Shown one piece after another: positions 34,174-49,800 of a stretch of 58,442 bases of DNA (position 1 is the stretch's first letter; every line of letters begins with the position of its first letter). The DNA is from an uncultured Verrucomicrobia subdivision 3 bacterium (lineage in GTDB: Bacteria; Verrucomicrobiota; Verrucomicrobiia; Limisphaerales; UBA11358). A program made the position numbers and the translations under genes. Under the pieces are notes generated by a model. The model worked only from the letters and a program-made list of their open reading frames with translations. It was not told the DNA's origin and did no database searches. The stretch spans positions 1 to 58,442 of the forward strand of contig CAIQWB010000017.1 in the NCBI GenBank assembly GCA_903875465.1. The letters run 5' to 3'.

Positions 34174-36414
34174 ATGCATGAGCCACGCCAGAGTGTCGTG
34201 GTGGCTCAGCCTACCCTGGAAGGGAGTGGCTGGACGCGCCGGGCGTTTGTGCAGTCCCTTGGCGGCATCATGGCCGCCACCAGCCTCCTGCCCGGGGCTG
34301 CCTGGGCCGCTTCACCCGTGAGCGAGCGGGCCACGATCCGGCCGAAGACAGTCACGCCCCGCCCGCGTTATCGTGCCGTCAGTTGGTGGCTCACCCTGAA
34401 CGACCTCGCTTGGCCGAATCCGGAATTGATGGATAACATTCGTCGCCGGGCGGACACCTGCGCGGCCAACGGGGTTAACTGCTGCACCATCTTTGGCGCG
34501 CATATGCGCTGGGATTTTCTTCCCATTTGGGGCCGGCTGCATGACGAAATCCGTTTCATTGCGGACGAATTGCACCAACGCAAAATCTTGTTGTTCGACC
34601 ATCACTCCGCCGGCGTCGTTCAGCGCCCGCGCAATCCCGCCGAAGCCCTGAATGTCTGGCACCGTAACCGGCATCACCTGCCGTTTTATCCCAACTATGC
34701 CGAGGCCGCCACCTGGCAGTTTGCCGGTTCGCATCTGAATGACTGGCGCATGCTGGATCTGGCCACTGGGAAGCCGGCTTATTTACCGGCCTATAACGCC
34801 GAGCAATTTTGTCCCAATCACCCGGATTTCCAAGCGGCCTATCAGACCTATGTGCGCCGCTTGCTGGCCGATACTGGCATCGACGGCCTGATGAGTGACG
34901 ACGCTATTTTCTACGCGGACTGGCACGCTTGCGGCTGCCACTATTGCCGCGTCCGGTTCAAGCAGGATTACGGGCACACCTTGCCGCCGGTGAGTGATGC
35001 TGCATTTTGGGGTGACCGGCGTAATCCGGCGTTTCGTGATTGGATTACCCTGCGCTATCATTCCACCCGCGATTTTTTGGGCCTGGTCCGCGCGGCAGTG
35101 CCCGCCGGTTTTCCGCTGCTAACCTGCTGTTCCAGCAGCGATAATTACTACCTGCCCGGTTTTGGGATGAGTTACCAAGACTTCATCCAAAACTGCAATC
35201 ACGTCATGCTCGAAATGTGCGGTTCCACTCCCACGCTCAAGGGCACTTGGGATGATCGCGTGCCCAGTCAGTGGCTGCACCTCGATATTGCCCGGGCCCA
35301 CGCCGCGCCGTGCTTCGGCTTAGGCTACGGCTTTTTTCCTGACACCGCGTTTTTTATCTGGGCCGTGAATAAATTTCTCGGTTCGGATTGTTGGTTTAGT
35401 ACCTTGAAAGGCCGCCTTGATATCTCACCCGCCGAATTGAACGGCCTCGCGGATGACCCGGAACTGGTGGGCGAGGGCTATCTCTGGGAAATGGCGCATC
35501 CCGATTTGTTCCTCGGGGAAGTGGTGGCCCCGGTTGCAATTTTATTTTCCCGCGCCACCCGAGATTTCTACGGGGAAATGCCCGGGGACTACAGCAACGA
35601 TTACAATGCCACTTGCTTGGCTCTGATGCAGGCCAATTTGCCCGTGGAAGTCCGCACCGAAATTCCGCTCTTTGGGCAAACCAAGGCGCTGTGCCTCAGT
35701 GGTGTGATGTGCCTGGCCCGCGACCAGCGGGCAGCCTTGGAAAGTTTCATGACCGCTGGCGGCCTCGTGATCGCCACTGGGCCCACTGGATATTACGATG
35801 CCGCTGGAAATCGTTCTCCCCAATCCTGGTTTGACGCCTTGGGGCTGGCAGTTGAATTGGTTGAACCCGCTCGTCCGGGTAGTTTCCCGCCGTACCAAAA
35901 CTTCCCCAAGCCCGTACCCTTGGCGAAATGCCACTTGAGGGATGCCGTTGTCTCTCAAATGTCAGGTGGTTGGTTCAATCGTTCCGTGGGGCAGGGGTGG
36001 TTTTTCTGGCGCCCCGAACGAATGGCTGAGCCAGCGCTGTCACCTTCGGTAATCGCGGTATTGGCGGTTCATCAACCCGCCGCCTTCACCCTGGCTGGAC
36101 TGCCCGCCACTTGGCGGACGCGATCCTACCAGCATGGGAATCGGTTGCTCATCCATTGTCTGCCCGCCCAAGTGGAGACGGTGTTGCATCCCACCCTGCA
36201 AAACCATTTTAATCAGGAGCGGTTGGTGCAAAAGCTGCGTTATGAGCCGTTGAAGGGACGATTGGTGGTGTCACCCCCCACGCGCTGCACCGCCGTTTGG
36301 TTGCATAGTCCGGATTTGCCGGCGGCGCGCCCCGCCCAGCCGATTGACGGTGGTGGTTGGTCAGTGGATGCCACTCTAGTCTCGCGGTATTTTATTTTGG
36401 AATGCGTTGTCTGA
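34174..36414 (+). CDS. Tat-exported TIM-barrel glycoside-hydrolase-like protein
   Basis: A 746-residue protein with a twin-arginine signal (GWTRRAFVQSLGGIMAAT, about 18-36; cleavage near AWAAS). The next 350 residues resemble a hydrolase TIM barrel of the hypothetical glycosyl hydrolase group: YRAVSWWLTLNDLAWPN, CTIFGAHMRWDFLP, IDGLMSDDAIFYADWHACG, and a Cys pair in CGCHYC (about 249). A middle domain (about 440-560) looks like the glutamine-amidotransferase-like trimerisation domain of GH42 enzymes (GEMPGDYSND, then FMTAGGLVIATGPTGYYD). A C-terminal beta domain ends the protein. Beta-galactosidase-like or fucosidase-like activity is possible, not shown. Confidence 0.7.
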   Translation: MHEPRQSVVVAQPTLEGSGWTRRAFVQSLGGIMAATSLLPGAAWAASPVSERATIRPKTVTPRPRYRAVSWWLTLNDLAWPNPELMDNIRRRADTCAANGVNCCTIFGAHMRWDFLPIWGRLHDEIRFIADELHQRKILLFDHHSAGVVQRPRNPAEALNVWHRNRHHLPFYPNYAEAATWQFAGSHLNDWRMLDLATGKPAYLPAYNAEQFCPNHPDFQAAYQTYVRRLLADTGIDGLMSDDAIFYADWHACGCHYCRVRFKQDYGHTLPPVSDAAFWGDRRNPAFRDWITLRYHSTRDFLGLVRAAVPAGFPLLTCCSSSDNYYLPGFGMSYQDFIQNCNHVMLEMCGSTPTLKGTWDDRVPSQWLHLDIARAHAAPCFGLGYGFFPDTAFFIWAVNKFLGSDCWFSTLKGRLDISPAELNGLADDPELVGEGYLWEMAHPDLFLGEVVAPVAILFSRATRDFYGEMPGDYSNDYNATCLALMQANLPVEVRTEIPLFGQTKALCLSGVMCLARDQRAALESFMTAGGLVIATGPTGYYDAAGNRSPQSWFDALGLAVELVEPARPGSFPPYQNFPKPVPLAKCHLRDAVVSQMSGGWFNRSVGQGWFFWRPERMAEPALSPSVIAVLAVHQPAAFTLAGLPATWRTRSYQHGNRLLIHCLPAQVETVLHPTLQNHFNQERLVQKLRYEPLKGRLVVSPPTRCTAVWLHSPDLPAARPAQPIDGGGWSVDATLVSRYFILECVV

Positions 36415-36417
36415 ATC

Positions 36418-37467
36418 ATGAACCCCAATTTTGAAACCGCGGTAACTAAACCACCGGTCAAAGTGGCGGTAGTAGGCCTGGGTCTCATGGGTGTCACCTA
36501 CCTGAAAGCTCTGCAACAAATCTCCGGAGCCCGCATTGTGGCAGTGGCGGGCAAAAGTCGTGTCCCTGTCAATGGCAGCCTGTCCGGGGCCAGCGGAAAT
36601 ACCGGCGGGGCAGATGCCATTCATCTGGATCCTGACGTTAAAGTTTACCGGAATATTGAAGAATTGCTGGCTGACCCGTACATTGAGCTGGTATGCCTTT
36701 GTCTGCCGACCCAGTTCCACTTAGCCTACTCGGTCGCGGCCTTGCGGGCGGGCAGGCACGTCATTTGCGAAAAGCCCCTGGCGAGATCCCTGCCGGCAGC
36801 CAGGGAAATCATCACGGCCGCGCGCACCGCCAAGGGCTATTTCATGCCGGCCATGTGCATGCGATTCTGGCCGGGTTGGTCCGGTTTGCGCGAGCTGGTG
36901 GCTTGGGAAACCTATGGAAAATTATGGTCCGCCCGGTTCCGTCGTGTCTCGGCACCGCCAGCCTGGGGCCGGGAAAATTACTTTAACGGCGCGGAGTCGG
37001 GCGGCGCTCTGCTGGATTTGCACATCCATGACACCGATTTTGTGCAATACCTGTTTGGCCGCCCATCGGGGGTTTTTTCCACGGGCCGGAGTGTGTTCAG
37101 CGGGGCCATCGATCATGTGGTGACGCAGTATCAAGTGGCTGGCGGGGCCTTGGTTCACGCGGAGGGTAGCTGGCTTCAGGCCGCCGGATTTTCCATGGCC
37201 TACACCCTCAATTTCGAGTTCGCGACCTTGGATTATGACAGTCGCAGGGGTCCCGAGGCCCTTCTTCTAATCGAGGTGGGCGGCCAACCACGCGCGCTTC
37301 CTTTGGAACCCTCGGATGGTTATCTCGGTGAATTACGCCATATGATTGAATCCATTCAAGCCGGTTTGCCTCCTTCAATCGTGACGGCGGCGGATGGTGT
37401 GCAAGCTGTGGAAATTTGCGCAGCGGAGGAGGAATCCGTCCGCACTGGCCAGGTAGTGACCCTATGA
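36418..37467 (+). CDS. Gfo/Idh/MocA-family NAD(P)-dependent dehydrogenase
   Basis: A 349-residue cytoplasmic oxidoreductase. The Rossmann motif is intact, VKVAVVGLGLMGVTYLKAL (about 13-31), and the family motif CEKPLARS appears at about 118-125 with the catalytic-region Lys. The C-terminal sheet domain includes GGALLDLHIHDTDFVQYLFG (about 194-213) with the His typical of the family. It is the third Gfo/Idh-like gene in the island and the only one with both a canonical nucleotide loop and no signal peptide. It lies 3 bp after the Tat-exported hydrolase gene and closes the plus-strand run. Probable role: oxidation of a sugar or cyclitol in the pathway with the DegT enzyme. Confidence 0.88.
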   Translation: MNPNFETAVTKPPVKVAVVGLGLMGVTYLKALQQISGARIVAVAGKSRVPVNGSLSGASGNTGGADAIHLDPDVKVYRNIEELLADPYIELVCLCLPTQFHLAYSVAALRAGRHVICEKPLARSLPAAREIITAARTAKGYFMPAMCMRFWPGWSGLRELVAWETYGKLWSARFRRVSAPPAWGRENYFNGAESGGALLDLHIHDTDFVQYLFGRPSGVFSTGRSVFSGAIDHVVTQYQVAGGALVHAEGSWLQAAGFSMAYTLNFEFATLDYDSRRGPEALLLIEVGGQPRALPLEPSDGYLGELRHMIESIQAGLPPSIVTAADGVQAVEICAAEEESVRTGQVVTL

Positions 37468-37783
37468 AACGCGACCTTGGTTGCAATTTTCAAACATCCC
37501 ATCGACTGTTAGGGCAACTCAATCATCGATTTACCTAACGCACATGAAGCACACCGTGCCTATATCCTAAGTCCTTTTCGACGTATCTCCGGACGTATTA
37601 GGCGCTAAGCAGAATCGTAAAGTACTCTATTTTAGCCACTTTAATAATATGGCAATTGAGTGCGATTTACCTGGATTTTATTACCACAGCCGGTGCTGGG
37701 GTTCCCAGTGGGCGAGCGGGTTGGATTTTTTAAGCCGGATTCACCTGGGGGACTTATTGAGTCGCATGGCCGAAACCTGGCAA

Positions 37784-37813
37784 AGGCACGATTAGGCACG
37801 ATTAGGCACGATT
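37784..37813. repeat. Three tandem copies of AGGCACGATT
   Basis: Three perfect adjacent copies of a 10-base unit end at 37813. The frame of the surrounding decayed coding stretch is broken by a TAG formed inside the repeat (37793-37795), so the expansion may itself have contributed to gene loss. The related string CGATTTACCT occurs at the repeat end and twice upstream (about 37530 and 37665). Confidence 0.7.
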
Positions 37814-38245
37814 TACCTACGGACGCCCGGACCAGGGGCGCACGGTTGCGGGTCCGTTACCTGCGCCGCAGGGCAGCCCGCAACTGTTTGCAGAAAGCCC
37901 CACCGGGCAGGCGGGTTTGTTTATTAGCCGGATTTAGGCGGATTAGCCCAGGGGCGCATTTTCGGGATTTCTGTTTGGGATGTCAAAGAACTGGCTGCCG
38001 AGGCATGCGGCATGGCGGACCTATTGGCGCGGAACGGTCGGAATATCGCCCATGTCTAAATGCACTCGCATGATGAGTATAAGCGAGTGGGCAGATTTTG
38101 TCAAACGGAGCCAGTGTCCGGCACGCGGCCAAGGGTATAGTGTCTACTTAAGGAAATACCGGCCAAGGGGATTCCTGGGTTGGTTCATTTTTGGCACTGC
38201 CGGAGCTCGACAGCCCGGGACCGAACGTACAAGCTCTTTATCATT

Positions 38246-38440
38246 ATGCGTTTAACCCTTTTCATTCTCGCCGGCCCGCTGGCTTTTCAAGGGGGCATTT
38301 GGCGCAGGCAACGCCGCCGATGGCGGATTACCTGGCCAAGTTTCACGCGATCCCGGCGCCGGCACCGTCAGGAATGCTCCTGAAAAAGGGAGATCGGCTA
38401 TGCCCCGGTCACTTATACGATCAAGTTAACCCCGCAATGA
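38246..38440 (+). pseudogene. SGNH/GDSL hydrolase relic with frameshift and large internal deletion
   Basis: An ATG at 38246 starts a signal-peptide-like stretch MRLTLFILAGPLAFQ. After a frameshift near 38290 the text resumes in another frame as MADYLAKFHAIPAPAPSGM and LLKKGDRL, which matches the region just before the GDSIT block of verrucomicrobial and planctomycetal SGNH hydrolases. The GDS block and the whole catalytic core are missing. The original frame then gives APVTYTIKLTPQ and a TGA at 38438-38440, similar to the C-terminal strand of these enzymes. The gene is therefore dead, reduced from an expected 1.1-1.3 kb to under 200 bp. Confidence 0.6.
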
Positions 38441-38543
38441 ACCGCTGCCGGTACTCCGGGCCGGACACGCCGCGGCCCTATTATTCTGAGCGTTAAGAAG
38501 GCAGCGTTGGCGCGGGAGATGGTGGTGGGAGCATTAATTTCCA

Positions 38544-38571
38544 TTGACGGTCGATGGGAAAACACTTTACT
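38544..38571 (+). promoter_or_regulatory. Possible sigma70-like promoter for the sulfatase genes
   Basis: TTGACG at 38544-38549 and TTTACT at 38566-38571 are separated by 16 bp and lie about 70 bp upstream of the sulfatase ATG at 38639. The match is moderate and sigma70 consensus rules may differ in this phylum. Confidence 0.3.
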
Positions 38572-38638
38572 TGAGCCAGTACCGTTCTGACCGCAGGCAA
38601 ATAATCGCCGCCGACGGTCTGGCCGGACTTTTGGGGAA

Positions 38639-40090
38639 ATGAAAAAGCACTGTTGTCATCCTCACCGGGCAAGCGGCCGGCCAGTCTATAAACTCGTTTG
38701 GTTGGGGCTGCTGTCGGCGCTGCTCATGCTTGCCGCTCCCGCTTCCGCGACGCCCGCGCGACCCAACATGATTTTCATTTTGATCGATGACATGGGTTGG
38801 AAAGACGGCGGCTGTTTCGGTAGTAAATTTTACCAGACACCCCAGATCGATGCGCTGGCCGCCAGCGGCACCCGCTTCACGCAAGCCTATGCGGCCTGTG
38901 CCGTTTGCTCCCCTTCGCGGGCGGCCCTGATGACGGGAAAATATCCGGCGCGATTACATATCACGGATTATATACCCGGGGAAGGCGCGCCGCCCGGCAG
39001 CCGGTTCCGCCTGCCGGACTGGCAGCAGCAGTTGCCGACCACGGAAACCACCCTGGCCACGGCGTTGAAACGGTTGGGTTATGCCACCGGCCATATTGGC
39101 AAGTGGCATTTGGGCGCGGGCGAATGCCTGCCGGAACACCAGGGGTTTGACACGAATATTGCCGGGGGCGACACAGGCCACCCGGGGGCTTATTTCTGGC
39201 CTTATGGTGGTCCAAACAACCCGCATCGCGTACCCGGGTTGGCGGAACACGGCGGCCACCCGGGCGAATATCTCACTGACCGCCTCACCGACGAGGCGAT
39301 CCACTTCATTGAGGCGAACCGGGACCATCCGTTTTACCTGAACTTTTGCCACTATGCAGTTCACGCCCCGTTGGAGGGCAAACAGGAACTGATTGATGCG
39401 GCCGCCGACCGGCCGGGTGCGGATGGTCAAAGCAATGCGGTCTATTCTGCCATGTTGCGCAGTGTGGATGAGAGTGTAGGGCGCATCGTCAAGAAGCTTG
39501 CCGACTTAAGTTTAGCTGATCGCACGCTCATCGTTTTCACCTCGGACAACGGCGGGGCGGTGCATTTCGGCAAACCGCCGGCCACCGCCAACACGCCCCT
39601 TCGCAACGGCAAAGGCTCCGCGTATGAAGGTGGTCTCCGGGTGCCATTGATCGTTAAAATGCCCGGGGTCACGCCAGCGGGCAGTGTTTGTGACACGCCG
39701 GTGATGACCATGGATTTTTTTCCGACCCTGCTGGAACTGGCCGGAGCGGACCCTTCGGCCAGCCACACGGCCCTGGACGGGGTGAGCTTCGTGCCCCTTT
39801 TACGTGGTGAAACGACCCCGCCGCACACCGAGTTGTTCTGGCATTATCCGCACTATTGGAATGGCGGCAAGGTATCCCCTTACAGTGTGGCCCGCGTGGG
39901 GGATTGGAAATTAATCCGCTTTTATGAAACGGGTGCCGAGGAGCTTTATCATTTAAGCACCGATTTGTCCGAGCAAAAAAACCTGGCAGCGGCCCAACCA
40001 GAAAAACGGCGGCAATTGGCCGCACGACTCGACAACTGGCTCCAACAGGTCGGCGCGCAAATGCCCGTGCCCCGCCCACCTGCTCATTGA
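38639..40090 (+). CDS. Sulfatase (formylglycine-dependent), exported
   Basis: A 483-residue arylsulfatase-family enzyme with an N-terminal membrane/signal segment (about 20-40, cleavage near ASATPARP). Metal site IFILIDDMGW (about 46-55), sulfatase signature CSPSRAALMTGKYP with Cys90 as the residue to be converted to formylglycine, GHIGKWHLG (about 150) and TSDNGG (about 302) are all present. It would remove sulfate esters from glycans in the periplasm or outside the cell. The next gene, 6 bp downstream, is a second sulfatase. Maturation needs a formylglycine-generating enzyme, not found in this window. Confidence 0.92.
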   Translation: MKKHCCHPHRASGRPVYKLVWLGLLSALLMLAAPASATPARPNMIFILIDDMGWKDGGCFGSKFYQTPQIDALAASGTRFTQAYAACAVCSPSRAALMTGKYPARLHITDYIPGEGAPPGSRFRLPDWQQQLPTTETTLATALKRLGYATGHIGKWHLGAGECLPEHQGFDTNIAGGDTGHPGAYFWPYGGPNNPHRVPGLAEHGGHPGEYLTDRLTDEAIHFIEANRDHPFYLNFCHYAVHAPLEGKQELIDAAADRPGADGQSNAVYSAMLRSVDESVGRIVKKLADLSLADRTLIVFTSDNGGAVHFGKPPATANTPLRNGKGSAYEGGLRVPLIVKMPGVTPAGSVCDTPVMTMDFFPTLLELAGADPSASHTALDGVSFVPLLRGETTPPHTELFWHYPHYWNGGKVSPYSVARVGDWKLIRFYETGAEELYHLSTDLSEQKNLAAAQPEKRRQLAARLDNWLQQVGAQMPVPRPPAH

Positions 40091-40096
40091 ATCATC

Positions 40097-41629
40097 ATGC
40101 TTGTTTTTTCTAAAATAACATATGCCAAAACGGCCGGCTGGCTGGCCGGATTAGCCCTGGTGGTTTTACCCGCTGCATGCGGGGCAAGTGGGACCCCACC
40201 ATTGGCCACCCCCAACATTGTCCTGATTGTCGCCGATGATTTGGGCTTCGGCGACACCGGTTGTTACGGGGCGACCAAAATTCCTACTCCGAACATCGAC
40301 CGCTTGGGCCGGGAGGGGCTCCGTTTCACGGATGCGCACGCCACCTCGGCCACCTGTTCGCCCTCGCGCTATGCGCTGCTCACCGGCCAGTATCCCTGGC
40401 GTAAAAATGGCACCGGTGTTTTGCCGGGCAACGCGGCGCTGATCATTGATCCGCGGCATGCCACGCTGCCTTCCATTTTGAAAGGGGCAGGGTACCGCAC
40501 GGGCATTGTGGGCAAGTGGCATTTGGGTTTGGGCGGGGCGGCTGGACCGGATTGGAATGGGGAAATCAAGCCGGGTCCGCTCGAAGTAGGTTTTGATTAC
40601 GCGTTCATTCAACCGGCCACCGGGGACCGGGTCCCTTGCGTATATGTTGAAAATCATCGGGTGGCCGGTCTCGATCCCCTGGATCCAATTCAGGTCAGCT
40701 ACGGCCAGCCGATTGGGGATGAGCCCACAGGGCGCGCCCATCCGGAATTGCTCCGCCTGGGACTGACGCTGGGGCACGATGGCACGATTATCGACGGCAT
40801 TAGCCGCATTGGCTTCATGACCGGCGGGCATGCCGCCCGGTGGAAGGATGAGGACAAGGCGGATGTGCTCACGAAAAAGGCCGTGGATTTCATCACCCAA
40901 GATGCCCGGCGTCCATTCTTTCTGGAGTTTGCCACCCATGATCCGCATGTGCCCCGGGTGCCGAACCCGCGCTTTGTGGGCCAGAGTGGTTGCGGTGTGC
41001 GCGGCGATGTCATCGTCGAGTTTGATTGGTCGGTCGGCCAAATTCTGGCGGCGCTGGACCAAATGAAACTGGCATCGAATACGATCGTCATTCTTACCAG
41101 TGACAATGGCCCGGTGCTGGACGATGGTTACGATGACCGCTCGGTGGTGGACTTAAACGGCCACACCCCGGCCGGGCACTTGCGGGGCGGCAAATATTCG
41201 GTCTATGAGGGTGGCACCCGCGTGCCTTTTATTCTTGCCTGGCCGGGCCGGGTAACGCCCGGCGTGTCGGCGGCGATGGTGAGCCTGGTGGATTTTCCGG
41301 CCTCGTTTGCCGCACTTACCGGGCAGGTCATTCCACCCGGGGACGCGTCGGACAGTGTGAACGTCCTGCCCGCTCTACTCGGCAGCAGTCGCACGGCCCG
41401 CGACCAACTGGTGGAACATGATGGCGCCCGGATGCTGGCGTTGCGGGACGGTCTTTGGAAATTCATCGAGCCGGATTCCCGGGCCAACCGAACCTATTCA
41501 CTCGCCGGGGAACTCTACGACCTGGAGCAGGACCTGGGAGAAACAAACAATCTGAACTCAACGCAGCGCGAGCGCAGGTATCAATTATCCAGCACACTCG
41601 AGCAGACCCGCCAGCCTGGCAAGCGTTGA
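40097..41629 (+). CDS. Second sulfatase (formylglycine-dependent), exported
   Basis: A 510-residue arylsulfatase paralogue with a signal peptide (about 1-32). It shows NIVLIVADDLGFGDTGCYG (about 39-57), the signature CSPSRYALLTGQYPW with Cys87 as formylglycine site, GIVGKWHLGLGG (about 137-148), FATHDPHVPR (about 276) and LTSDNGPV (about 333). It differs enough from the preceding sulfatase to suggest a different sulfate position or glycan. Downstream of its stop lies an integrase relic on the other strand. The pair most likely acts on the same sulfated substrate as the neighbouring glycosidases. Confidence 0.92.
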   Translation: MLVFSKITYAKTAGWLAGLALVVLPAACGASGTPPLATPNIVLIVADDLGFGDTGCYGATKIPTPNIDRLGREGLRFTDAHATSATCSPSRYALLTGQYPWRKNGTGVLPGNAALIIDPRHATLPSILKGAGYRTGIVGKWHLGLGGAAGPDWNGEIKPGPLEVGFDYAFIQPATGDRVPCVYVENHRVAGLDPLDPIQVSYGQPIGDEPTGRAHPELLRLGLTLGHDGTIIDGISRIGFMTGGHAARWKDEDKADVLTKKAVDFITQDARRPFFLEFATHDPHVPRVPNPRFVGQSGCGVRGDVIVEFDWSVGQILAALDQMKLASNTIVILTSDNGPVLDDGYDDRSVVDLNGHTPAGHLRGGKYSVYEGGTRVPFILAWPGRVTPGVSAAMVSLVDFPASFAALTGQVIPPGDASDSVNVLPALLGSSRTARDQLVEHDGARMLALRDGLWKFIEPDSRANRTYSLAGELYDLEQDLGETNNLNSTQRERRYQLSSTLEQTRQPGKR

Positions 41630-41801
41630 GGCTGCGAGGAGCCTGCGGAATCCAACCGACTGGACCGCACATGGCACGGCCCAGATCATCCGCCACGGTG
41701 AGATTGGCGGAGAACTGGCGATTACGCTGCCACATTCCCCGGACGCGGCGCTTGCGTGAATCAAAGGCTTTCTGGTATTTATAAGAGGCCGATGGTTTTG
41801 G
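41630..41801 (-). pseudogene. Relic of a tyrosine recombinase (integrase) N-terminus
   Basis: On the minus strand the text SYKYQKAFDSRKRRVRGMWQ, followed by RNRQFSANLTVADDLGR, resembles the arm-binding N-terminal part of phage-integrase-type recombinases (pattern RKRRiRGLW.RNgrfyA.ltv...GR). The frame then degenerates and runs into the end of the sulfatase gene, and no catalytic domain follows. It lies about 100 bp on the 5' side of tRNA-Leu and points away from it. Confidence 0.45.
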
Positions 41802-41899
41802 TGCTGCTTGGGCTGCCCTTGTATGCTCCATAGCAACCACCGTGGCAGCGCCAATACGAACGTGCAAATGCTGCCTAAGTTGTTGATTGCCAACGGATG

Positions 41900-41987
41900 C
41901 CGGTGTGGCGAAATGGCAGACGCACAGGACTTAAAATCCTGGGACCATAAAAAGTCGTGTGGGTTCGAGTCCCACCACCGGCACCAA
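41900..41987 (+). tRNA. tRNA-Leu (anticodon TAA)
   Basis: Acceptor arms GCCGGTG (41900-41906) and CACCGGC (41977-41983) pair fully, followed by discriminator A and encoded CCA. The anticodon loop CTTAAAA gives anticodon TAA. A long variable arm (around GGACCATAAAAAGTC) fits a class II leucine tRNA, and the T-loop reads GGTTCGAGTCC. Confidence 0.93.
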
Positions 41988-42163
41988 TTACCTCGTTGGC
42001 TCAATTTCCATGCTCAGCGCCAGCAAACGCAGCCAGTGCTCTGATCAGCGGTGACTAAGGGCAATTACTTCTGGGCTCCGTTAGCGAAACGTAGTTTTTT
42101 CGTGGACTCCTCCAGCCATTGGGTTGAACTGGCTTCGGTTAGGCCTTGGTTCTCGATGGCAAT

Positions 42164-45049
42164 TTAGTTGCTGGGCACTCCTTGAACATTGAATTCACGG
42201 TAGACATTAAAGCCCAACGGGCCGTCCCGGAACTGAAAGCGGATGGCCACAACGTTGGTGGCATGCAACGGCAAACGCAGCGCGGTTCGGCCGCCAGTGG
42301 ACGATTTGAAGCCGGTTGCCACTTTCACGAATTGTTGGGGCGCGCCAGCCTGGGCGACAAACAGGTCATAATGCTGGCTTGACCGGGCATCGGCATGGTT
42401 CGCGAAGCTGCGCACTTCGGTGAGGTCCACTGGCTGTTTCAGCCGAAATTCCAGCCAATCCCCCGAGCCGTACCCGCGGAAGGTTTGGCCGTCGTCTTTG
42501 GTTTCGCTGCCACCCGCGCCATTGCGGGTGGTGCCATTGAAAACCGCGGCTGCATTCGAGCCGCCGCCGGAGTGGCTGGCATGGTCCGCAGCGCTGGCCA
42601 GCAGGTGATGCAACACGTCGTCCGGCACAATGTCCAGATCTTCGTCAGGGAGGCGGGCCGGGACGGATGGCGCGGCATCGGACACCACTGCGAGCGGCTT
42701 GAGTTTGCCGGCCAATTCAAAATGGTGTTTGCCGGGCCCCACAGGCAGTTGGGGGGCGGCGGGCTGGCCATCGCAGGTGGTCTGCGAATGCTCAAATCGT
42801 TCCACCGGCAGGGTCACCTCGGCGGCAGCCCCTTCCGGGACAACGACATCCAAGGCAAATTTATCAGGTTGCATTTGCCAGGCGACTTCCACATTGCCCT
42901 GCGGTGTGGGGACGGCGCCCCGGGCCCAATGTAAATCACATGGTTGCGGGCGGATGGCAACCACGCGGAAACCGGGTGCGGCCGGGGTGATACCCAGAAT
43001 TTTGGAGGTGAGCTGCACCAACGGGGTGGAGCACCAGCCGTGACTCAGGTCACCGTGGTTCCACATTTCGCGGAAAGACTGGGTTTCCGGCACGATTTGC
43101 CAGCGCTGCAGTTGTGCCATGGCATAGCGATCAAACAAGCCGGCATGGTCGATGGCGGGGAATACCCAGTGCATGAACCAGGGCTGGGTATTGAGGGGTT
43201 TTTCGGCGAGCACTTGCTCCACTATTTTTTGCTGCCGGTCTTGGGGCGCGAGGTCATACAAGACCGCGAGGAGGTTGACATGGGGGCTGAACGTTTCGAT
43301 GGCGGTATCGGCGGGCAGCCATTTGCCAGGCTTAACGGAGGTGCGAAATGGGTTGCCATCGCGATAAAGGCCTTGGGCGGGATTCCAGAGTTCCTGGTTG
43401 AACGCCCGGGCGGTTTCGTCGCGCAGGTGCTGGTATTTCTGGACGCGCGCGGCATCACCCGCCAGGGTGGCAATGCGCGCAGCCATTTCCAGACCGTGAT
43501 AATAAAAAGCGGTCAGATATCCCTGGCCGATCACGGCGGGAGGATGATGGCAGTTGATGCCGGCAATCTCCACCCAGTCCATAAACATATAATTTGGGGC
43601 TTCCGAGATGATGCCATTGGTTCCGCGCCAGGAGGTGTAGGTATCGAGCAGTTCGTGGACATAGGGAGACAGTTCCTGCACGAGGGAGGCATCGCCGGTG
43701 TAGTCGTAGTAATCCAGCAACATTTGCAACCAGCCAAGGGAGTAGCTGGTGTGGAAATTGTGGTAGTTCTCGTCCTTGAGCAGCCAGGCAAATTTCCGCA
43801 GATCCTGCCGCGCGAGCCAGGGTTGGGCGAAGGTCTGGAAGTTCACCATGGATTCAATCAGATAATCGCCGGGATCACTGATGGGCTCCTGGTGATTGGG
43901 CGAGTCAAGATGGTGCGTTTGCAGGCAAATCTGCACCGCCCAGCGGGAGACATCATAGAGGCGGTTTAACTGGTCATCGTTGCATTGAAAAGAACCGCGG
44001 TACGCCACCGGTTGCGAAGTGAAAATCGCCCCGACATCCGCGATGGTGACCGGTTCCCGGACGCCTTTCAAGGTGACAGTGAAGGCGGGCGCGATTTCGG
44101 TTAGGTGCGGGAATTCAAAATAATGTTCACCGCGGCCAAGGGTCATTTTGGCTTCGTTATTGGCTTTCACAATTAATTGCGCGCCCCGGCCGCCCGAAAC
44201 CTGCACGGTGGGATACCCACTCAGTACGCGATCAAATACCACGCGGAACGAGCAGTCATTGGTGATGACATGGGAGGGCAAGCCTTCGATGCGCAGCACG
44301 GGATAGTGCGCTTCCATCAAGGGGGGAATCTCGCTCGCGACGAGCGGGGGCCAGAGGTCTTTCACCGCGCTGCTGAATGACCAGGTAGAATCATCAAAGC
44401 CGGGTAAACGCCAGCCGGCGGGTTCCAGGGCAGGGGCGTAAATGGTCGGGCTGGGAAATTGCAGGGCAGGGGCGGAATGCCACGAACTATCGGAGGTGAC
44501 CCGGAGCGGCTGGCCAGCCGCCTGCGCGATTTCAGCTTCGAACAAAAATCCCGGCTGTCCGCGTGACACCGTCCAGCCGGTCCAATTCCGAAAAACTTCC
44601 GCAGCGATGACATTAGTGCCCGCCTGTAAATAAGTTTGCAACTCGCGAACGTCATAAAACCAGCGGTGGGTGTTGCCGCCGGCATAATCACGGCCCATAT
44701 CCACGGGCCCGCGCGAAACCAGGTGTCCATTGATGAACAGACGGTAGCGGGCATCGGCCGTCAGCCAGGCTTTGGCCGAACGCGGCGGTTCAGGCAGCAC
44801 GATTTCCTTCCGAAACATCGCGACCGGGGCGTTGCTTTCACCGCCAAGCCAGATCCATTTGGCCTGCCACGGGCCCGGTTTCTGGCATTCATTTAAAAAC
44901 TGATAGGAGGGCGCTTGCACGCCATTGGAAGTCACCAGCACTGGCATGCCGGGGTAGGCGATGGGCCCGTGAGCATCGGCCGCTGATCCCGGCCCGGCGG
45001 CAAGGAGGCACAATGCGGACAGAATGGGGGTGATTAGTTTTTGAAGCAT
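42164..45049 (-). CDS. Alpha-L-rhamnosidase-like (GH78-type) exported glycosidase
   Basis: A 961-residue protein from ATG 45049, chosen because it begins directly with a signal peptide (MLQKLITPILSALCLLAAG); an in-frame upstream start would add 23 residues. It has N-terminal beta domains (KWIWLGGESNAPVAMFRKEI, about 65-85; RYRLFINGHLVSRGP, about 103), an (alpha/alpha)6 region with HHLDSPNHQEPISDPGDYL (about 375-395) at the place where GH78 has its Asp/Glu catalytic block, and MWNHGDLSHGWCSTPL (about 690). The C-terminus (about 850-960) is a F5/8-type or CBM-like sandwich. Rhamnosidase is the best guess; other deoxy-sugar or galacturonide targets are possible. It is divergent to the ROK kinase gene. 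Confidence 0.78.
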   Translation of the reverse strand: MLQKLITPILSALCLLAAGPGSAADAHGPIAYPGMPVLVTSNGVQAPSYQFLNECQKPGPWQAKWIWLGGESNAPVAMFRKEIVLPEPPRSAKAWLTADARYRLFINGHLVSRGPVDMGRDYAGGNTHRWFYDVRELQTYLQAGTNVIAAEVFRNWTGWTVSRGQPGFLFEAEIAQAAGQPLRVTSDSSWHSAPALQFPSPTIYAPALEPAGWRLPGFDDSTWSFSSAVKDLWPPLVASEIPPLMEAHYPVLRIEGLPSHVITNDCSFRVVFDRVLSGYPTVQVSGGRGAQLIVKANNEAKMTLGRGEHYFEFPHLTEIAPAFTVTLKGVREPVTIADVGAIFTSQPVAYRGSFQCNDDQLNRLYDVSRWAVQICLQTHHLDSPNHQEPISDPGDYLIESMVNFQTFAQPWLARQDLRKFAWLLKDENYHNFHTSYSLGWLQMLLDYYDYTGDASLVQELSPYVHELLDTYTSWRGTNGIISEAPNYMFMDWVEIAGINCHHPPAVIGQGYLTAFYYHGLEMAARIATLAGDAARVQKYQHLRDETARAFNQELWNPAQGLYRDGNPFRTSVKPGKWLPADTAIETFSPHVNLLAVLYDLAPQDRQQKIVEQVLAEKPLNTQPWFMHWVFPAIDHAGLFDRYAMAQLQRWQIVPETQSFREMWNHGDLSHGWCSTPLVQLTSKILGITPAAPGFRVVAIRPQPCDLHWARGAVPTPQGNVEVAWQMQPDKFALDVVVPEGAAAEVTLPVERFEHSQTTCDGQPAAPQLPVGPGKHHFELAGKLKPLAVVSDAAPSVPARLPDEDLDIVPDDVLHHLLASAADHASHSGGGSNAAAVFNGTTRNGAGGSETKDDGQTFRGYGSGDWLEFRLKQPVDLTEVRSFANHADARSSQHYDLFVAQAGAPQQFVKVATGFKSSTGGRTALRLPLHATNVVAIRFQFRDGPLGFNVYREFNVQGVPSN

Positions 45050-45147
45050 CAATATTTTTAACTTCGCAAACACGTCGCGCGCCGTCGAGCCCAAACCGGG
45101 CGAAATCTTGGTTTGCACCGCATAAGTTTTTTTGAAACCATGCCAGC

Positions 45148-46032
45148 ATGAATCGGATGGGCATGGATCTCGGCGGAACCAAAATTGAAGGCATTGTGCT
45201 GGATGCGCAGGGCCAGGAACTCTTTCGCAAGCGCGTGGAAACGCAGCGGGACAAAGGGTATCAGCACATTCTCAACCGCATTAAGAGCCTGCACGATGAC
45301 CTGGCAGCGAGCACGGGCGGGGCGCCGCACACGCTGGGGATTGGCACGCCCGGGGTGGTGGCACCGCGGACGGGGTTGATGAAAAATTCCAACACGGTGT
45401 GCATGAATGGCCAGCCGGTGAAGGCGGATCTGGAACAGTTGCTGGGGCGGCCGGTGGAAATGCAAAACGATGCCAACTGCTTTGCCATGGCGGAGGCTTT
45501 GCTGGGGGCAGGGCGGGGGCATAAAATGGTCTTTGGAGTGATCATGGGAACGGGTTGTGGCGGGGGGCTGGTTTACAAGGGGGAAGTCATCACCGGACCG
45601 CAGGCCATTGCCGGGGAGTGGGGGCATATGTGCATCGATCCCGAAGGTCCGTTGTGCTATTGCGGGCAAAAGGGTTGTGTGGAGACCTTTATTAGCGGTG
45701 GCGGATTGCAACGACGCTATCAGGCCCAGTATGGCCTGCAAAAGAGCTTTTTTGAGATTGAACAGGATTATCGGCGGGGGGAACCGAATGCGGTGGCGCT
45801 CATCCAGGAGTTTTTCCGGCGCTTCGGCCGGGCGATGGCCAATTTGATCGATGTGCTGGATCCGGATGCCATTGTGCTGGGGGGCGGGGTTTCCAAATTT
45901 GAGGATGTTTACACGCTGGGGGTGGCCGAAGTGGCCAAATATGTGTTTAACGACCGTTTGGAGACGCCGATTTTAAAACATCAAATCGGCGATTCCGCCG
46001 GGGTAATCGGCGCGGCGCTGGTGGGAATTTGA
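45148..46032 (+). CDS. ROK-family sugar kinase (NagK/Mak-like)
   Basis: A 294-residue kinase with the ATP-binding MDLGGTKIEGIVLD (about 6-19), the substrate-site ENDANC-type motif as MQNDANCFAMAEALLG (about 109-124), VIMGTGCGGGLVYKG (about 131-145), catalytic-region GEWGHM (about 155), and the ROK zinc motif CYCGQKGCVETF (about 169-180). It is close in layout to E. coli fructokinase Mak and NagK. GlcNAc kinase activity would supply the GlcNAc-6-phosphate for nagA in this window, but a fructose or glucose preference cannot be excluded. It is transcribed divergently from the GH78-like gene through a 98-bp gap. Confidence 0.88.
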   Translation: MNRMGMDLGGTKIEGIVLDAQGQELFRKRVETQRDKGYQHILNRIKSLHDDLAASTGGAPHTLGIGTPGVVAPRTGLMKNSNTVCMNGQPVKADLEQLLGRPVEMQNDANCFAMAEALLGAGRGHKMVFGVIMGTGCGGGLVYKGEVITGPQAIAGEWGHMCIDPEGPLCYCGQKGCVETFISGGGLQRRYQAQYGLQKSFFEIEQDYRRGEPNAVALIQEFFRRFGRAMANLIDVLDPDAIVLGGGVSKFEDVYTLGVAEVAKYVFNDRLETPILKHQIGDSAGVIGAALVGI

Positions 46033-46159
46033 ATCATCGTGAAATTTTTCACAAACTTTCCTTGCGCGGGAAGCCGAAGTTCAATAATTATATTCTCAAT
46101 ATTTTGCGTGGCGTAAGACAATATCTGATTAAGGTACAATCAACGTTCGCGATCCCGTA

Positions 46160-46828
46160 ATGTCAGCAATTTTTCCGAAGTGGACAAACAGTTTGCCCTT
46201 GGCGCTAGGAGCCGTTGTGGCGGTTGTTGGTGGTGTGGTCACCGCCGGCGTTGCGCTCTATGCCACCCCCAAGCATACGCGGGTGGGCTACGAGCCCGTT
46301 CAGCCGGTGCCCTTTTCCCATAAGATTCATGCGGGCCAGATGGGGTTGGACTGTCGCTATTGTCATAATGGGGTGGAGAAGTCCTGGTTCGCCAACCTGC
46401 CCGGTGCTTCCACGTGCATGAATTGTCATAATCAGGTGATGAAGGACGATCCCTTGCTGGCCGTGGTGCGGGACAGTGCCGCCACCGGCAAGCCGATTCC
46501 CTGGGTGCAGGTCCACAAGGTGCCGGATTACGTTTATTTTAACCACTCGGTACACGTGACCCGCGGCGTTAGTTGCGTGGAATGTCACGGTCGTGTGGAC
46601 CAAATGGAGGAAGTTTACCATGCCAAGTCGTTTAGCATGAGTTTTTGCCTGGACTGCCATCGTGATCCGGCCGAGCACATTCGTCCGACCGCCCAGGTTA
46701 CCCATCTGGACTGGCAATGGAGTACGAACGAGGCGGTGGCGGCCGAAATGCAGGCCACGAACGGAACCAAATTTGTGCATGATTGGAAAGTGGAATCGCT
46801 CCAAAGCTGCTCGGCGTGTCACCGATGA
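46160..46828 (+). CDS. actA: Alternative complex III subunit ActA, pentaheme cytochrome c
   Basis: A 222-residue membrane-anchored cytochrome with one N-terminal span (about 12-35). It has exactly five CXXCH heme sites: CRYCH, CMNCH, CVECH, CLDCH and CSACH, the last at the extreme C-terminus. This is the pattern of ActA of alternative complex III, which passes electrons from menaquinol oxidation to periplasmic acceptors. The TGA overlaps the ATG of actB. It is the first gene of a ten-gene respiratory operon; the 127 bp before it are AT-rich, but I could not assign promoter boxes with confidence. Confidence 0.93.
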   Translation: MSAIFPKWTNSLPLALGAVVAVVGGVVTAGVALYATPKHTRVGYEPVQPVPFSHKIHAGQMGLDCRYCHNGVEKSWFANLPGASTCMNCHNQVMKDDPLLAVVRDSAATGKPIPWVQVHKVPDYVYFNHSVHVTRGVSCVECHGRVDQMEEVYHAKSFSMSFCLDCHRDPAEHIRPTAQVTHLDWQWSTNEAVAAEMQATNGTKFVHDWKVESLQSCSACHR

Positions 46829-49800
46829 AAAATAATTTGAACCAATCAGCCCCGAGTGTGACTGGCCGCCGTTACTGGCGGAGCTTGGATGAACTGGCCG
46901 ACACGGCGGAGTTCAAGGAATGGTTGCAACGCGAATTTCCCCAGGGAGCCAGTGAGCTGGAGGACGGGGTGTCCCGCCGTCATTTCGTGCGCATCATGTC
47001 GGCCTCGTTGATGCTGGCGGGCATTGGCGTGATGGGCGCGGGTTGCCGCCGTCCGGAGGAAAAGCTGGAGCCGTTTGGTCAGCAACAGGAGAATTACACT
47101 TTCGGCGAGGCGCAGTATTTTGCGACGGCCATGCCCACGCGCAACGGTGCCATTCCCTTGCTGGCGAAGTCCTACGAAGGCCGGCCGGTGAAACTGGAAG
47201 GCAACGCCGATTTTCCGGGTAGCAATGGTTCGACCGACCGTTATGCCCAAGCATCCATTCTGGACCTTTATGATCCAGACCGGACGAAGCGCTTTAAAAA
47301 TGCGGGCAAAATCGTAGCCGCGGAAGATGCCCTGGCCGCTCTCAGCCAACTTTCCCAAGCCGCCGCGACCACCGGCGGGCAGGGGTTGGCGTTCCTGACT
47401 GATCGCAGCACTTCGCCTTCGCGCCGGCGCTTGCAGGATTTGATTTCCCAGAAATTTCCGAATGCCAAATGGTTCGCTTATGAGCCGGTGGATTCGGACA
47501 TCCATCAGCGCGCGGCCACGCAGGCGTTTGGGCAGTCCGCTCGCCCGGTTTATCACTTTGAGAAAGCCAAAGTCATCGTGTCCTTGGGCAGCGATTTCTT
47601 GGGCTCGGAAGATGACACCCATAACCACATTCGTCGTTACGTGGCAGGGCGCAAGCCTGAGACCGGTTCGATGAGCCGGTTATACGTGATCGAATCGCTG
47701 TTTACCCTCACCGGGGCAGGGGCAGATCACCGCTTGCGAGTGGCGGCAAGCCAGATCGGTGCCATTGGGGCGGCGATCAGCGCGGCGGTGGCCGGCGCTC
47801 CCATTTCCGCTCCGGCGGGCGTGGATAAAAAGTGGATTGAAGAATGTGCCAAGGATTTGACGCAAAACCGGGGTAATGCGTTGGTGGTGGCCGGTCAAGC
47901 ACAGCCCTTGGAAGTGCATCTGCTGGCCTTTGCCATCAATTCGGCACTGGCGGCAGTTGGGAGCACACTGGCGCTGCATCCGGTGACGACGCCGGTAGGT
48001 GGCACTATTGGGGAACTGGCCCAACTTTTGAATGCGGGCTCGGTGTCGACGCTCGTCATTCTGGGTGGCAACCCGGTCTACAACGCCCCGGTGGATTTGA
48101 ACTGGGCAACCACCCAGCGCAAGGCCAAAACGGTGGTGCGCTTGGGCTATTACGAGGACGAAACTTTTGCCCAAACCGACTGGCATATCCCGGCCGCGCA
48201 TTATTTGGAGTCGTGGAGTGACGCGACCACCAGTGATGGGATTTTGGTGCCGGTGCAACCGCTCATTCAACCGCTGTTTGGCGGTTTGAGCGAGTTGGAA
48301 TTTCTGGCCCGCCTCGCAGGTGAGACCCAGACGAGCCCTTACGAAATCGTCAAAGCCACGTTTGGTGGTTCGGAGGAAGCTTGGAAGAAATTTTTGTTCA
48401 ACGGTTACCAAACTGAATCAGCAGCCGCAACGGTAACCGCCACCTTCGCTGGCACCCCGCCTGAAGTCAAATCCAGCACGCCTTCAGCAAGCAGTCTGGA
48501 AGTGGTTTTTTATCGGGATGCCAAAGTGGATGATGGGCGTTTTGGCAACAATGGCTGGATGCAGGAATTGCCCGAACCCATCACCAAAATCACCTGGGAT
48601 AATGCGGTGCTGGTAAGTCGCAAGACGGCCCGGGAAATGGGCGTCGAAAATGGCGACTTGGTTGAAATTACTTTGAATGGCCGCACGGTCAAAGGTCCGA
48701 TCTGGACCCAGCCGGGCATGGCAGACTATTCCTTGGGTTTGGCTCTTGGTTACGGCCGGCCGGCGGCGGGGCGGGTCGGCACAGGCGTGGGTTTCAATTC
48801 CTATGCCATCTTCGCCGGAAGCTATGTTGCGACCGGAGCAACGCTCAAGAAGACGGGCGAGACCTATGTGATTGCGACCACGCAACACCATTGGTCAATG
48901 GAAGGCCGTCCGGCGGTGCGCGAAGCCAATTGGGCTGAATACCAGAAACTTCCGAATTTTGCAGAGAAGATGCACGGTGAGGAGGCGCCCATTCAGCAAT
49001 CCCTCTACCCGAATCCACTGGATGAGGCGAAAAAAACGGCCCTGCACCAATGGGGCATGTCGATTGATTTAACCTCCTGTGTGGGCTGCGGCACCTGTGT
49101 GGTGGCTTGCCAGAGCGAAAACAACATTCCCATTGTCGGGAAGGACCAAGTTACGCGGGGGCGCGAAATGCATTGGATGCGGATTGACCGCTATTACACA
49201 GCGGATCCGGCCACCGAGAAACTTTCCGATACGTTCCAAAAAGACGAGGGCCAGCAATTTGCCGAATGGATTGACGACGTGCAGGCGGTGAATCAACCGA
49301 TGCTTTGCCAGCAGTGCGAAGCCGCTCCGTGCGAGAATGTTTGCCCGGTCAATGCCACGGTGCATGACCAGGAGGGCCTTAATGTCATGGCCTATAATCG
49401 ATGCATTGGCACCCGCTATTGCTCGAACAACTGCCCATACAAGGTGCGTCGATTTAATTATCTGGATTTCAACAAGCGTCCGCTAACCGCGCTGAAAGGC
49501 ACGCTGTATCCCACGGCCATGCTAGGCAGCAAGACGGGCGGAGAACTGGACATACTTCGTTGGTGGAAGGACCCGAACGCCGGAATGCGCGAAGAGGACG
49601 AATGGGATTTGATCAAGATGGTCAAGAATCCGGATGTGACCGTGCGCATGCGCGGGGTGATGGAAAAGTGCACTTATTGCACCCAGCGCATCGAACACGC
49701 CAAGATCAAGCAAAAAGCCAAGGCCGGCGGAACGGATCATGTGCGCCTGCGTGAATCGGAAGGCACGATTCCGAAGACCGCCTGCCAGCAGGCGTGTCCC

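Follow-up and report, generated by a model that had tools for sequence, protein, structure and literature searches.

The 58,442 nucleotides analysed here (the window) contain, at 38246-38440, what is very probably a pseudogene, derived from a secreted two-domain GDSL/SGNH hydrolase, that has lost 1163 bp to one internal deletion, a reading that draws on comparison with homologous sequences. The intact ancestor is one that we infer from homologues, since a syntenic intact gene was not found, and the lost hydrolase was probably a carbohydrate esterase. A first-pass annotation had described this stretch as an SGNH hydrolase reduced to its two ends and surviving in three fragments, and the description holds: the fragments, their coordinates and their text are as given there, the pieces occupy two reading frames, and the N- and C-terminal pieces match the ends of the same intact relatives.

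Layout and reading frames of the relic

38246-38319, + strand: signal-peptide-like start of the SGNH relic (MRLTLFILAGPLAFQ...), from sequence and hydrophobicity; the frame switches before 38320
38320-38399, + strand: N-terminal piece of a GDSL/SGNH hydrolase, from profile and DNA alignments; it stops just before the AICGDSITEQ or AIIGDSITEQ of intact relatives
38399-38400, + strand: deletion junction of the relic, with 1163 bp absent relative to L013 and L016, congeneric relatives with intact genes
38399-38440, + strand: C-terminal piece YAPVTYTIKLTPQ and stop codon; base 38399 is common to this and the N-terminal piece

Translation from the ATG at 38246 gives MRLTLFILAGPLAFQGG, a signal-peptide-like stretch that is one of 67 as hydrophobic among the window's 1432 stop-free ATG starts, and which, taken alone, is weak evidence for the relic. 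The N-terminal start of a secreted GDSL/SGNH hydrolase is read from 38320-38400 (MADYLAKFHAIPAPAPSGMLLKKGDRL), and 38402-38440 translates as APVTYTIKLTPQ followed by a stop, the last 12 residues of the same protein family. The first and third pieces (38246 and 38402) share a frame, the second (38320) lies in a different one, and the frame of the 38246 start meets a stop codon at 38381-38383. Because the start and the N-terminal piece occupy different frames, a second lesion exists, so that by comparison with intact relatives the relic carries more than one inactivating lesion, namely the 1163-bp deletion and this frame change. A frameshift near 38290 had been claimed earlier; the extra lesion is confirmed between 38246 and 38320, and within that interval it would possibly fall at the G run 38291-38295.

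Extent and ends of the deletion

The DNA of L013 aligns to the relic at 38348-38399 (76.9%) and 38399-38428 (87.1%), and that of L016 at 38356-38399 (77.3%) and 38399-38440 (78.6%), the latter match running to the last base of its gene. In both relatives one base of the relic aligns to places 1163 bp apart, which sets the missing length at 1163 bp and agrees with the earlier estimate that about 1 kb of catalytic core had been deleted. The relatives' copies compared with the relic were chosen by full-length similarity; nine of them have any DNA match to 38340-38440, of which these two match both pieces and the other seven show a single-piece match or one at chance level. Both fragments had been expected to resemble a single family of SGNH hydrolases, and L013 and L016 do fit both.

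Counted in residues, 364-391 are missing in 28 of the 31 rows of relatives' junction DNA, the counts of the remaining three (L012, L016 and L075), which are anchored at another motif, being excluded. The N-terminal piece corresponds to residues 26-52 of L010, in which the GDSL domain occupies residues 55-235, so that the entire domain has been lost; and 1163 does not divide evenly by three, in keeping with the placement of the N- and C-terminal pieces in different frames.

In L013 and L016 the sequences that bound the missing stretch have a single base in common, and the codons of some other relatives, e.g. L017, would permit two. Since the relatives suggest 1-2 bp in common at the junction, it appears that no repeat drove the deletion, and the short direct repeat that the first-pass annotation had anticipated there does not materialize. 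The relatives' DNA is the decisive test in this matter, rather than a scan of 37400-38700, which is blind to the lost end and in which no repeat found spans 38399.

Against 29 intact copies the relic agrees on average at 18.1 of its 33 kept residues, and intact copies agree among themselves at 19.1 (means 15.4-21.9). The kept ends are therefore no more decayed than intact genes, which, over these 33 residues, suggests that the loss of the gene was recent. Comparison with the relatives shows that the internal deletion fused the Leu codon in the GDRL stretch with the Tyr codon in YAPVTY, the C-terminal strand, and thereby removed the whole GDSL domain, the blocks of Ser, Asn and Asp/His included. 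The fusion probably came about by illegitimate joining of unrelated ends with 1-2 bp in common. The remnant would yield no working enzyme and may be drifting out of the genome.

Family identity of the two ends

The N-terminal piece is the best of 2182 six-frame window fragments against a family profile (E 1.8e-5, profile positions 18-49) that was built from 30 intact copies with L027 (internal stop), L081 (contig start) and L082 excluded. Against the same profile HMM the C-terminal piece gives E 2.1, fourth in the window, at the last positions of the profile; as it is short, it was therefore tested as a stop-anchored motif derived from the tails of 32 relatives. Scored in this way it reaches 22.4 bits, the runner-up among 12471 in the window reaching 4.7, and its score was attained by none of 261707 in 20 Markov-shuffled windows (best 18.0).

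Used as a 27-residue query, the N-terminal piece matches 32 of 59 genomes at E <= 1 (its own and relatives, its own counted), the weakest of these matches, to short frames, being possibly due to chance, and 11 of the 49 genomes of the genus at E <= 0.001 (its own counted). The stronger matches are starts of long open frames, the translations of which run on directly into AICGDSITEQ, AIIGDSITEQ or closely similar text, and the best identity of homologues over the piece is 74%. PF13472 (Lipase_GDSL_2) is found in the two intact relatives tested, L010 and L016 (E 4e-17 and 1.1e-15), and both ends of the relic have their homologues in a single family of intact GDSL proteins, in line with an SGNH/GDSL hydrolase of PF13472. 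The solved chain nearest to L010 is 7br2_A, 'Lipolytic enzyme, G-D-S-L family' (E 2.7e-20).

In SGNH/GDSL hydrolases we take the GDS serine to be block I, GxND to be block III and DxxH to be block V. The serine of block I is absent from the relic, the junction at 38399 preceding that block, and for blocks III and V the family profile found no core match above chance in the window (best other fragment E 0.66), hence no leftover catalytic core of the gene, and Pfam likewise showed none in the frame of the relic.

One relative's copy of the same SGNH family (L027, at G042:C82) has a stop codon inside its N-terminal part.

Paralogues and neighbours of intact copies

A full-length member of the family is present in the organism's own genome (G000:C93, 16370-17596; E 1.6e-104 to L010), where it was missed by the 27-residue query, and a distant match (29%), which has an open frame to itself, came up at C122 when the same genome was searched with an intact relative. 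In all, this genome has 18 PF13472 matches, 17 of them over the cut-off and C93 among them. Because the full-length member persists at C93, the function need not have been lost: the loss of an esterase, as claimed earlier, is right as to the relic gene, which is dead, and has to be read beside the family member that remains.

Neighbours were listed for seven intact copies, three of which (in G002, G006 and G027) were also scanned with Pfam. In G002, a congeneric genome, a glutaminase-A-type protein comes next after the intact gene, and GH92 after that; the G006 copy has a sulfatase on one side and GH92 plus GH38 on the other; and the G027 copy has a putative esterase on one side and GH38, then GH92, on the other. 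For L059, L062, L063 and L067 no such neighbours were evident from the gene listing, made without a Pfam scan. Given the glycan-gene neighbours of the intact copies, the lost gene probably had a glycan esterase role.

The glycan island and the synteny break

About 25.7-37.5 kb: glycan island, with a symporter, a NAGidase, a ceramidase-like protein, a 746-aa protein without Pfam match, and Gfo/Idh/MocA
Within the glycan island: aminotransferase-like protein, named from a reading of the sequence by eye, not from Pfam
37660-38130, + strand: core of a dispersed intergenic repeat upstream of the relic and separate from its gene, with ends set by eye from a 14-copy alignment

The island is collinear in the sister species G012, at 83-91% protein identity, and is also present in G069, G067, G007, G028 and G034. 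DNA similarity to G012, which is 87% over 36400-37661, ends at 37661, before the relic. Beyond it, 38130-46900 is spread over several G012 contigs, namely C134 (45129 onward), C113 (the rhamnosidase gene) and C55 (tRNA-Leu), along with a weak match on C36 (the second sulfatase) and two short tRNA matches, and this scatter puts a synteny break between the island and the relic. No SGNH gene of the relic's family was found in 17 island or sulfatase stretches of relatives, many of which are cut by contig ends, and blastn with 37460-38640 gave no match in the plasmid collection.

These comparisons bear on two further claims of the first-pass annotation. That an esterase was recently lost from the glycan island stands as to recency, over the 33 residues, and is doubtful as to origin in the island, shared G012 DNA ending near 37661. 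The idea of a deletion hot spot next to the sulfatases is without support beyond the general rearrangement of the segment; only SGNH-family fragments were sought in the window, and none was above chance.

Some other features of the region are recorded here. A 24-residue frame at 37464-37538 has an ATG that overlaps the Gfo/Idh/MocA stop (ATGA), and by eye 2 of its 75 bases differ from G012. Two sulfatase frames at 38639-41629 are only 6 bp apart in the window; the closest sulfatase homologues in G069, G008 and G071 (L107, L109 and L112) are several kb apart, with other sulfatase-like matches between them. A tRNA-Leu(taa) at 41899-41986, with these two sulfatase frames on one side and the rhamnosidase gene on the other, is identical in G012, where it sits on a different contig from its window neighbours.

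A dispersed repeat upstream of the relic

The dispersed repeat is a more unusual feature than the relic. Its core begins within ~10 bp of 37661, where G012 similarity stops, and its profile spans 37577-38235, flanks of the alignment included; conserved blocks are present, and a tandem AGGCACGATT array occupies 37784-37813. The profile finds copies, some of them partial or weak, at all 20 own-genome places (L119-L138), which had been chosen from earlier matches. Two module patterns each have 14 matches in the own genome at <=3 mismatches (the window copy counted) and none, at up to 3 mismatches, in 58 relatives including G012. The aligned copies are 53% alike on average, flanks included, with some blocks strongly conserved, and of the 18 copies for which a crude ORF call gives an outer gene to the left and to the right, 11 sit between divergent genes. 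Rfam matched nothing in 37300-38700 (E up to 1) and nothing in nine copies at gathering score. The consensus RNA structure is weak (-9 kcal/mol over 771 columns) and, as shuffled alignments mostly fold to zero, says nothing either way about the repeat.

The relic might mark a rearrangement seam, at which the multi-module repeat, itself perhaps a recombination-prone element, brought the relic, the two sulfatases, the tRNA-Leu and the rhamnosidase gene beside the island, the SGNH gene having decayed afterwards; we regard this as unlikely. Repeat flanks were compared with G012 for three copies, and at those on C37 and C5 (L129 and L128) the right flank matches G012 well and the left flank matches another contig over 76 and 88 bp, which is weak evidence for broken synteny. 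Since the left flanks of these two further copies match over 76-88 bp only, the probability of a seam is lowered. If the repeat does mark seams, it would offer a handle on the reshuffling of polysaccharide-utilisation loci in uncultured Verrucomicrobia-type bacteria.

Alternative explanations

It could be argued that the organism has an intact gene, whose two ends the assembler joined, the genome being in 153 contigs at 96% completeness. This is quite improbable, however, as the 1-2 bp in common at the ends of the missing stretch make collapse at a repeat unlikely, an independent frame change lies within the same gene, and no orphan core turned up in the own genome, where the search with an intact relative gave the relic, C93 and the distant C122. 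Recombination involving the dispersed repeat just upstream might also be invoked to account for the deletion, given that the repeat core ends ~115 bp before the relic and that G012 similarity stops at its left edge; but both ends of the deletion lie inside the gene, the relatives' DNA has no repeat at either end, and the repeats found near the relic leave 38399 uncovered, all of which makes this origin very improbable. What the repeat may account for is the synteny break rather than the SGNH deletion.

The view that the remnant serves as a new short gene, whose translation continues and yields a small peptide or a leader of importance to the downstream sulfatase, would draw on an uninterrupted 101-codon frame (38191-38496) that spans the N-terminal piece. 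Yet this frame takes in neither the signal-peptide-like start nor the C-terminal piece, which lie in another, stop-broken frame, and Pfam gives nothing for it at E up to 10, so that such a role is extremely improbable.

Comparison with known systems

Having weighed these alternatives, we conclude that the relic is an ordinary internal-deletion pseudogene and, as such, of little importance beyond correcting the number of genes counted in a glycan locus and showing how esterases are turned over in such loci. A literature search found no paper joining SGNH, pseudogene and Verrucomicrobia. The intact relatives L010 and L016 carry the domain of the SGNH hydrolases of PF13472, and GDSITEQ, GMND and DGVHP-like blocks are seen in the relatives' translations, whereas the relic is without these blocks and keeps the stretch that precedes the domain and the last strand. 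In bacterial internal-deletion pseudogenes the core is removed by one internal deletion and the ends stay. The relic is like them in its lost core, its kept ends, its extra frame lesion and its surviving paralogue, and by this comparison nothing in it is unusual.
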